A DNA stretch of 64,000 nt, taken from NCBI RefSeq assembly GCF_005771495.1, contig NZ_VAUW01000014.1, forward strand, positions 1 through 64,000, given 5' to 3'. The translations under genes were made by a program, and so were the position numbers. Source of the DNA: Maribacter sp. ACAM166. Its GTDB lineage: Bacteria; Bacteroidota; Bacteroidia; Flavobacteriales; Flavobacteriaceae. Under the pieces are notes generated by a model, which was given only the letters and a program-made list of their open reading frames with translations, made no database searches and was not told the origin of the DNA. Of this stretch, positions 61,774 to 63,295 are shown piece after piece. Numbering within the stretch: position 1 is the first letter of the stretch; every line of letters begins with the position of its first letter.

Positions 61774-62232
61774 CTATATCTTCTTAACACGAACGGCGTT
61801 CATACCTTTCATGCCTCTTTCCAGCTCGTAAGAAACTTTGTCATTTTCCATAATCTCATCAATAAGACCACTTACATGAACAAAATATTTCTCGTTATTT
61901 TCGGTGTCAATAATAAAACCAAAACCTTTTGAAGTGTCAAAAAATGAGACTTTACCATTTCTTACCGGGTCAAATTCTTCAACATCTCCTTCTTCCTTTT
62001 TAGGAATACCAAGAATGATATCCTCGGCTTCAACTTCAACTTTCAATGAAGGGTCTGGCGGAGTGTCTACTAAATTACCGTTATAATCAACATAAGCAAG
62101 TGGTATCCCAGAGGTTCCGCCTTCTTTTGTTGCAGCTTTACGAGCAAGCATCTTTTTCTTTTTCTCTTCACGCTTCTTTAAGCGTTTTTTTTCTTTTTCA
62201 GTTTTATTAAATGTCTGTTGTGATTTTGCCAT
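61774..62232 (-). CDS. Cold-shock-domain protein with charged N-terminal extension
   Basis: A 152-residue protein. Residues 1-35 are extremely basic (TEKEKKRLKKREEKKKKMLA), followed by a flexible acidic linker (40-85) and a C-terminal cold-shock domain (about 90-152) with RNP1 KGFGFI and RNP2 YFVHV. The domain is close to the short Csp at 41070. The long basic tail should add nonspecific RNA binding. The type is common in Flavobacteriaceae. Its transcript has a leader of about 145 bases, in contrast to the other Csp gene. Confidence 0.93.
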   Translation of the reverse strand: MAKSQQTFNKTEKEKKRLKKREEKKKKMLARKAATKEGGTSGIPLAYVDYNGNLVDTPPDPSLKVEVEAEDIILGIPKKEEGDVEEFDPVRNGKVSFFDTSKGFGFIIDTENNEKYFVHVSGLIDEIMENDKVSYELERGMKGMNAVRVKKI

Positions 62233-62412: not shown

Positions 62413-62656
62413 GCATATAAAGAGCTCAAACTATTAAACTTTTAAAAGAATTCGTATTTATCAGAATAGAAATTTAAGTACGGACTATAATTTGATGCTA
62501 AAAGTGAATCTAATTTCAGATTAGGATCGATATCATTGCGTAATTTTCAGGCTTTTGTCCTAATTATAATTCACCTTCATTTAAAATAATCTTAAAATCA
62601 TTAAATTAAAACGCCCACGTAACTGACAGTATTATAGTATTTTATGTTTATTTCAA
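62413..62656. other. Intergenic stretch with no visible gene
   Basis: About 240 bases between the two divergent promoters; AT-rich, no frame of interest on either strand. Confidence 0.4.
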
Positions 62657-62698
62657 TTTTCCCAAATAATCTATTTGGGAAAATTAGTACCTTTTTAT
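62657..62698 (+). promoter_or_regulatory. 24-bp inverted repeat and promoter of the small-peptide unit
   Basis: TTTTCCCAAATA (62657-62668) and TATTTGGGAAAA (62672-62683) form a perfect inverted repeat with a three-base centre. TACCTTTTT (62688-62696), a relaxed -7 box, follows within five bases. The position fits an operator that controls the small-peptide genes. It could also form an RNA hairpin only if transcription started further upstream. Confidence 0.55.
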
Positions 62699-62780
62699 GC
62701 CTAGTACTGTAACAAATAACTTTAGTAGTCGTCTACTTTGTATAACAAAACAATTAATCATCAATTTAAAAATGAACATC

Positions 62781-62894
62781 ATGAGAACTTTCATCAGAAA
62801 CACACCAACGGAATCTAGAAGAAATACATTCTTTTCAAATTTTAAGAACAGTAAACGAGTACAGTGGGCATCCTCTAGAAACCATACGCATTAA
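62781..62894 (+). CDS. Basic 37-residue peptide, copy 1
   Basis: Encodes MRTFIRNTPTESRRNTFFSN followed by FKNSKRVQWASSRNHTH, rich in Arg, Lys, Asn and Ser, with no signal peptide or membrane segment. The ATG at 62781 is shared with the second copy; an ATG at 62772 is unique to this copy. The two nucleotide differences from copy 2 within the gene are both synonymous (Phe4 TTC/TTT, Thr10 ACG/ACA), which favours a selected peptide. I do not recognise the family; candidates include an RNA/DNA-binding peptide, a regulatory small protein or a peptide precursor. Confidence 0.65.
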   Translation: MRTFIRNTPTESRRNTFFSNFKNSKRVQWASSRNHTH

Positions 62895-62956
62895 TAAAAA
62901 CATCAATCAAAATAAATTAATCATCATCGGCTCATCATCGATATAAAACGAACATC

Positions 62957-63070
62957 ATGAGAACTTTTATCAGAAACACACCAACAGAATCTAGAAGAAA
63001 TACATTCTTTTCAAATTTTAAGAACAGTAAACGAGTACAGTGGGCATCCTCTAGAAACCATACGCATTAA
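62957..63070 (+). CDS. Basic 37-residue peptide, copy 2
   Basis: Amino-acid identical to copy 1 and displaced by exactly 176 bases. Its leader (62895-62956) includes AACATCATG at the start codon, as in the other copies. Same transcript as copy 1, with no terminator between. Doubling a short gene inside one transcript raises dosage, as seen for some toxin, antitoxin and stress peptides, but no such role can be assigned here. Confidence 0.65.
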   Translation: MRTFIRNTPTESRRNTFFSNFKNSKRVQWASSRNHTH

Positions 63071-63132
63071 TAAAAACATCAATCAAAATAAATTAATCAT
63101 TATCGGCTCATCATCGATATAAAACGAACATC

Positions 63133-63204
63133 ATGAGATATAGTAGACCCAAATTGGTGTATAGCTTCATCAAATTGGAATATGTGAATGGCAATTATAG
63201 ATAA
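63133..63204 (+). CDS. Third small frame after the repeated leader, 23 residues
   Basis: The repeated leader continues to ATGAGA at 63133, then the sequence departs and encodes MRYSRPKLVYSFIKLEYVNG-NYR before TAA at 63202-63204. It has an identical translation start context to copies 1 and 2, so it is probably translated, but the peptide is unrelated. It may be a recombination scar or the original downstream gene. A terminator follows at 63262. Confidence 0.4.
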   Translation: MRYSRPKLVYSFIKLEYVNGNYR

Positions 63205-63261
63205 ACAACAATCGATTTTTTCTCAGATGCACTGTTAAAACTTCAATTTATACGAAGTTGT

Positions 63262-63295
63262 AAGGATATGAACTCATCACTCATATCCTTTTTTA
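63262..63295 (+). terminator. Rho-independent terminator of the small-peptide unit
   Basis: AAGGATATGA (63262-63271) pairs with TCATATCCTT (63281-63290), followed by T-run. It closes a transcript of about 560-600 bases that starts near 62700. Confidence 0.88.

Follow-up and report, generated by a model that had tools for sequence, protein, structure and literature searches.

Tandem microprotein genes behind an ECF-sigma-type promoter in Maribacter and other Flavobacteriaceae

The phenol-soluble modulin alpha operon of Staphylococcus aureus consists of several very short, signal-less ORFs arranged in tandem on one regulated transcript, and its products, the phenol-soluble modulins (PSMs), are amphipathic, membrane-active peptides that are exported from the cell. 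The arginine-rich peptides of lambdoid phages (N) are short, strongly basic and helical; they carry a tryptophan near the basic face and bind RNA. Sra is an example of the stress-induced small basic proteins that associate with the ribosome or the polymerase. Promoters of the ECF sigma factors have an AAC-containing -35 box and a CGT-containing -10 box, with 15-17 nt between them. In Flavobacterium psychrophilum, the SM6 motif with its conserved CGT box at -10 was attributed to ECF sigma factors, and the SM6 genes covered in the available part of that description include an ECF sigma/anti-sigma pair, T9SS genes and genes for membrane proteins (PMC9723704).

In this work, a comparative genomic analysis was applied to a small array of short ORFs in Maribacter sp. 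ACAM166, located near the end of a 64,000-nt stretch of contig NZ_VAUW01000014.1 (the window). The units of the array, its promoter and its relatives in the genus, the family and the class were compared, and candidate regulators and a phage-borne copy are reported together with a proposed mode of action.

The array and its promoter in Maribacter

An earlier note on this DNA had described two units of exactly 176 bases carrying the same gene for a 37-residue peptide, and this is confirmed: two direct repeats of 176 nt each, 98% identical, occupy positions 62769-62944 and 62945-63120 of the window and encode identical proteins (Table 1). The 18-nt leader AAAAYGAACATCATGAGA occurs in three copies at a spacing of exactly 176 nt. 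Over the register 62769-63120 the units differ at four positions (62773/62949, 62792/62968, 62810/62986 and 62925/63101); the claim of three base differences, both of the in-gene ones synonymous, holds when the count runs from ATG to ATG, the fourth entering with the first leader. As called mechanically, the first-copy ORF begins earlier, at 62697. The window lies on contig 22 of the 4.92-Mb genome of the strain, in which the array is present once and the sole other DNA match is 25 nt long. The different 23-residue frame that had been seen joined to the third leader is a real ORF and a shortened version of the last unit of relatives: it aligns with the divergent 37-codon last unit of L074, L075, L077 and L078, but stops after 23 codons. 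A divergent last unit (32-45 aa) is frequent in other lineages too. In a comparison of 15 Maribacter arrays, five (L071, L073, L076, L079 and L088) were without one; this unit may have a role of its own or may be dispensable. The terminator that had been proposed after the array is found as a hairpin with a T tract, probably an intrinsic terminator, which the consensus terminator scan left unlisted because its loop of 9 nt exceeds the limit of 8.

Table 1. Features of the array locus and of the phage-borne copy (positions in the window unless a contig or locus is named)
Feature	Position	Strand	Basis or remark
Cold-shock-domain protein, long N-terminal extension	61774-62232	-	divergent from the array
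Palindrome of the earlier note	62655..62685	.	this genome only among those compared
GTAC pair GTACCTTTTTATGCCTAGTAC, abutting the -35 box; putative factor-binding site	62687..62707	+	GTAC-N12-AGTACTGTAAC spans 62687-62713
ECF-sigma-type promoter: -35 TGTAAC (62708-62713), 16-nt spacer, -10 CGTCT (62730-62734)	62708..62734	+	conserved boxes
A-rich leader / translation start context	62769..62786; other copies 62945-62962, 63121-63138	+	repeat; many units of relatives have a similar context
Microprotein gene copy 1, 37 aa	62781..62894	+	ORF and homologues
Microprotein gene copy 2, 37 aa, protein identical to copy 1	62957..63070	+	ORF and homologues
Third ORF, 23 aa / 23 codons, early-stopping last unit	63133..63204	+	alignment with relatives
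Hairpin and T tract, probable intrinsic terminator	~63261..63294	+	sequence and RNA fold
GntR/FCD regulator downstream of the array	63396 to past the window end (L001:2240-2869)		syntenic in Maribacter
Promoter of the arrays with 19-aa minimal peptide	L206 10158-10204	-	promoter pattern search

In 25 aligned upstream regions of the genus (the window included), a near-invariant block TAGTACCTTTTTATGCATAGTACTGTAACAAA is followed by CGTCT 16 nt past TGTAAC. In other genera, too, most of the examined arrays have this block in front of them; it is missing at L056, L057 and L112. The conserved switch (62687-62734) consists of two GTAC words 17 nt apart and an abutting TGTAAC-N16-CGTC, and the spacer between TGTAAC and CGTC is 16 nt long at 119 of 122 sites and 17 nt long at the other three. 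The array promoter thus has the AAC-containing -35 box, the CGT-containing -10 box and the 15-17 nt gap of an ECF promoter, and we take TGTAAC-N16-CGTC to be a form of it. Since GTAC is self-complementary, two readings of the pair are possible, an imperfect inverted repeat of the form GTACYWTKT-N3-RCAWAGTAC and a direct repeat; neither is preferred, because in the largest site class (71 of 130 sites) the two halves have little in common outside GTAC. If transcription is assumed to start about 7 nt past CGTCT, the pair would be centred near -44, and we infer that it is a candidate binding site of a regulatory factor. The operator suggested in the earlier note was a different element, a perfect palindrome with 14-bp arms that also scores as a terminator-like hairpin. 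Its sequence is absent from the 24 other aligned upstream regions, whose longest inverted arms in the same stretch are 4-10 bp, and it is probably not an operator.

The Maribacter array keeps one chromosomal place: among 19 loci with enough flank (window included), a cold-shock-domain gene lies upstream in 17, and a GntR/FCD gene is found at most three genes downstream in all 19. Across lineages, no conserved operon partner was found; the neighbours, which were clustered and of which few are annotated, are common only within a lineage, and such a partner was rejected. In six Maribacter genomes the second array (L124, L126-L130) has a divergent gene about 235 nt away that encodes a protein of 683-687 aa; these proteins belong to one family and look AraC-type-like by eye.

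Conservation of the peptides and the promoter word

A search with the 37-aa peptide at E up to 1 found relatives in 35 of the 36 Maribacter genomes (three of them, G003, G016 and G029, counted only via a distant type of about 50% identity) and in all 30 near-complete ones; the best E per matching genome was at most 1.9e-5, and four of the matches listed contain an internal stop. The 22 arrays counted in the genus have two to five units each, and at least 12 of the 36 genomes carry an additional, more distant array elsewhere. Within the family Flavobacteriaceae, 72 of 395 genomes match at E up to 0.01 and 61 at 1e-5, and the matching genomes span 43 of 203 genera, Eudoraea, Muriicola, Poritiphilus and Cerina among the named ones. 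Outside the family, 296 genomes of the class gave only nine weak peptide hits (E 0.002-0.009), three of them with stops; these were taken as chance, and homologues beyond Flavobacteriaceae were rejected.

Between species, pooled pN/pS is 0.26 (231 pairs of first units from 22 loci that we selected ourselves), and within arrays it is 0.13 (80 pairs), while the spacers between units diverge in length and sequence across relatives. Copies of one array differ on average by 9.6% and units of different arrays by 21%, so the copies appear to be partly homogenised or recently duplicated; the nearest relative lies in the unit's own array for only 39 of 66 units. Judged from these comparisons, selection acts at the protein level and the protein of the arrays is conserved. 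The homologue check proposed in the earlier note therefore came out in its favour, as relatives keep the frame, copy number varies and synonymous change exceeds nonsynonymous change. Its picture of short basic peptides duplicated behind one promoter likewise stands, with the peptides conserved in relatives and the array lying behind a conserved promoter.

The promoter word GTAC-N12-AGTACTGTAAC can itself be used as a search key. It is present in 33 of 36 genus genomes (none in the reversed control) and at 94 sites in 79 of 395 family genomes (two sites in the reversed control); among 346 genomes of the class, it occurred outside the family once only, in G436, without CGTC or a motif ORF. The element and the 37-aa peptide overlap incompletely: the 37-aa profile finds nothing at E 0.01 in 29 of the 79 element-bearing genomes, and of the 61 genomes that the peptide search hits at E up to 1e-5, 14 are without the exact element. 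In six of these 14 the right half occurs together with the -10 box, either exactly or with one mismatch; the other eight have no such version. Downstream of the element, other tandem short ORFs are found, namely 28-aa (ending in KAYAWNSKRRFR), 27-aa (RVWNNNRRYS), 44-aa (STRDTWYGRRRFGA) and 24-aa (SKRVRWSAHRNYAIKS) types.

These types, 19-44 aa long, are united by an ending like [ST]-K-x3-W-x3-R-[RN]-[YF], which was drafted after inspection of about 30 loci and was then used to score ORFs. An ORF with such an ending lies within 700 nt downstream at 88 of 89 distinct family sites for which at least 500 nt were available; in the promoter-only count, 94 distinct sites including G436 were considered, four that were too short were dropped, and 88 of the remaining 90 hit, with L232 and G436 as the misses. 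When the sites of all loci were pooled, mixing those reached through the peptide with those reached through the promoter (131 distinct sites, less six under 500 nt), 122 of 125 had a motif ORF, as against 166 of 1989 random background windows. The three pooled misses are L030, whose array lies behind a run of N, L204, which is the site in the out-of-family genome G436, and L232, where the motif residues are present in an ORF that runs on. Anchoring on the tryptophan was possible in 254 of 256 distinct peptides and places S or T at -5 in 95%, K at -4 in 86%, R at +4 in 98%, and Y, F or H at +6 in 253 of 254, frequencies that are partly circular because the ending itself served to pick the ORFs.

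The 256 peptides, collected under a stricter ORF rule by which five of 124 sites yielded no chain, have a median pI of 11.5, a median net charge of +6 and a median GRAVY of -1.23, with a maximum GRAVY of -0.39. For the 37-aa peptide, AlphaFold2 modelled helices at residues 9-22 and 25-36 (mean pLDDT 72, pTM 0.30); in the second of these, K25, W29 and R33 would share one face. Representatives of the peptide types have no hit in Pfam, NCBIfam or PHROGs. Sequence searches of PDB chains returned none for A1 and three chance-level hits (E 1.9-6) for A3, and Rfam gave no family at the gathering threshold, with chance-level matches only below it. By tblastn, the type A peptide was not found in plasmid records, nor the 28-aa type in phage records. 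A published description of the peptides or of the GTAC element was not found in the open-licence PMC literature, covered mostly through titles and abstract openings. With clear selection and no protein or RNA family match, the arrays look like a conserved, regulated and, as far as searched, undescribed small-protein system; the earlier suggestion of an undescribed system is thus borne out to the extent that Pfam, NCBIfam, PHROGs, Rfam, PDB and the literature reach.

Regulator candidates and a phage-borne copy

The pattern TGTAACA-N14/16-CGTCT occurs at six places in the genome of the strain (two in the reversed control). One is the array, one lies at an ECF sigma gene and one at a DUF4870 gene, and the remaining three have no clear gene. 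The ECF sigma gene (L118, contig 25) encodes a protein with Sigma70_r2 and r4_2 domains behind TGTAACA-N15-CGTCT; two further genes follow it, one for a protein of 144 aa that has no match in Pfam and one for a DUF4252 protein. Promoter boxes are therefore common to the array and an ECF sigma gene of the same genome. The closest ECF homologue is near universal: 40 genomes with the element and 40 without it were tried, and 39 of each have it (E up to 2e-57). The L118-type sigma factor was rejected as the cause of the patchy distribution, since a close homologue is present in 78 of these 80 genomes. The adjacent GntR/FCD gene was likewise rejected as a general regulator: homologues above 140 bits were found in 11 of the 40 genomes with the element and in 5 of the 40 without it (p 0.16). 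Neither gene thus explains why only about a fifth of the genomes carry the element.

A wider search with the right half of the element and CGTC, one mismatch allowed, was run in 58 genomes, and 15 of the further places were read; with the reversed pattern, these genomes yielded 18 hits, and several one-mismatch sites may be due to chance. Four of the 15 (L332, L333, L336 and L337) have a full or nearly full GTAC pair and precede peptides. Among the 11 without the pair, Pfam identified the proteins encoded behind three: a head-GIN (DUF2807) protein at L338, one that is CarboxypepD_reg-like at L339 and an ABC ATPase at L343; L340, L341, L342 and L344 resemble L339 by eye, L334 precedes a 207-aa protein, and L335, L345 and L346 show no clear target. 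The GTAC pair would thus mark the arrays within an apparently wider, envelope-type ECF set.

A viral contig of 13.5 kb (L206) carries the GTAC pair, the -35 box and CGTC, followed by a 19-aa ORF, MLRTSTKSSIWNSRRRYSL, and also encodes a family A DNA polymerase and a DnaB-like helicase. In the viral contigs searched, the first promoter pattern gave 26 hits with the CGTC box in L206 only, the second gave 11 hits with the peptide in L206 only, the third gave L206 alone, and the 37-aa profile gave no match. At another place of this contig (L206:1144-2975), six small ORFs of 83-102 aa with the tails YEVW, YQLW, YESW, YEIW, YDIW and YNIW form a tandem family of their own.

Proposed role, alternatives and relation to known systems

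The reading that we prefer, with a probability of about 0.6, is that the arrays produce cationic, helical, cytoplasmic microproteins in multiple copies, are switched on jointly by an ECF sigma factor and a factor bound at the GTAC pair, and act on an anionic target inside the cell. The array would be turned on by an envelope-type ECF sigma factor and a candidate factor seated just upstream of the -35 box, presumably as a single transcript on which as many as five ORFs stand in tandem, frequently with a divergent ORF at the end. The tandem copies would raise the dose, so that the products are made in bulk, and these would remain in the cytoplasm, a location suggested by the fact that no signal or hydrophobic segment is visible. 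They would fold into short helices; in a model of moderate confidence, the last helix presents K, W and R on a common face (K-x3-W-x3-R), followed by an aromatic end. This face might dock on RNA, the ribosome or RNA polymerase, the anionic target being a guess from charge and helix geometry.

Other readings have to be weighed against this. The short, basic, multi-copy peptides behind an ECF-type promoter, in tandem ORFs that resemble the phenol-soluble modulin alpha operon, could be secreted as antimicrobials or signals, and antimicrobial peptides were among the possibilities raised in the earlier note. We regard this as unlikely, since no leader or hydrophobic segment is visible in peptides that are very hydrophilic (median GRAVY -1.23) and no exporter, transporter, protease or immunity gene recurs among the neighbours across lineages (neighbours clustered, few annotated); of the features of class II bacteriocins, neither a double-glycine leader nor a hydrophobic signal was seen by eye, and the neighbours are lineage-specific. 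The other suggestions of the earlier note, a peptide effector or a regulatory small protein, may hold. The phage contig, with its full promoter and 19-aa minimal copy, would suit a family of toxin or takeover peptides, either part of a toxin-antitoxin system or a phage-derived modulator of host transcription or translation. That reading is rather doubtful in view of the viral searches, in which three promoter patterns led to a single contig and the 37-aa profile to none, of the fixed chromosomal place in Maribacter (same upstream gene in 17/19 loci, GntR downstream in 19/19), and of the composition of the 256 peptides, whose maximum GRAVY of -0.39 is unlike the hydrophobic, membrane-spanning peptides of type I toxins.

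A standalone unit with its own promoter and terminator and without a partner gene common across lineages might also function as RNA, such as a tandem sRNA or sponge, with the ORFs incidental. The purifying selection on the protein (pN/pS 0.26 and 0.13) makes this very improbable, as do the spacers, which diverge and are between 23 nt and 130 nt long, the latter being the most that the script allowed, the predicted folding of the transcript, which is no better than that of shuffles (z -0.10), and the outcome of the Rfam search, with chance-level matches only below the gathering threshold. A conserved RNA hairpin between units was considered and rejected, being present in many Maribacter spacers and mostly missing elsewhere; neither a conserved RNA structure nor an Rfam family, the marks of a small regulatory RNA, was thus found. 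Leader or arrest peptides, which would control a downstream gene through ribosome stalling near the conserved C-terminal motif, would account for the position of this motif and for ORFs of leader-peptide size, but there are several consecutive copies with a probable terminator past the last one, and the downstream genes vary between lineages, so that the arrays do not lead into a conserved regulated gene; we give this reading very little credence.

Going back to the cytoplasmic microproteins, a bolder form of this proposal can be outlined as a speculation to which we attach a low probability. The arrays would be a lineage-wide, dosage-tuned switch, in which a minimal docking motif, [ST]-K-x3-W-x3-R-[RN]-[YF], sits on N-terminal extensions that change fast, attaches to RNA polymerase or the ribosome in envelope stress and reprograms it; the divergent last copy would provide a second specificity or an antagonist, and phages would have captured the bare 19-residue version with its promoter for the same control point.

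In the flavobacteria, a major group among marine polymer degraders, a conserved and tightly controlled gene system has apparently been overlooked, probably as its ORFs of 19-44 codons fall under the usual gene-calling limits. A single promoter word locates the system in 79 of 395 Flavobacteriaceae genomes, and existing RNA-seq and proteomics data can therefore be used at once. The arrays offer a handle on two questions, the role of flavobacterial ECF sigma regulons and why bacteria tandem-amplify tiny genes.

The architecture, an operon of tiny ORFs behind an alternative-sigma promoter, has parallels. Like the phenol-soluble modulin alpha operon, the arrays consist of tandem short ORFs without signals; compared by composition, their peptides are very hydrophilic (median GRAVY -1.23), unlike the amphipathic PSMs. 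The array peptides share with the N-type peptides of lambdoid phages their shortness, basic character, modelled helices and a tryptophan near the basic face, whereas no sequence relation is shown and the array peptides have no domain hit. Unlike Sra-like proteins, they are encoded in unusually tandem-amplified form and have no sequence match in Pfam, NCBIfam or the PDB, but as small, basic and presumably abundant, cytoplasmic products they resemble this group. Although the available part of the SM6 description makes no mention of a GTAC pair or of peptide arrays, the CGT box at -10, to which the comparison was confined, makes the SM6 promoters of Flavobacterium psychrophilum the nearest published frame for the array promoter (PMC9723704).
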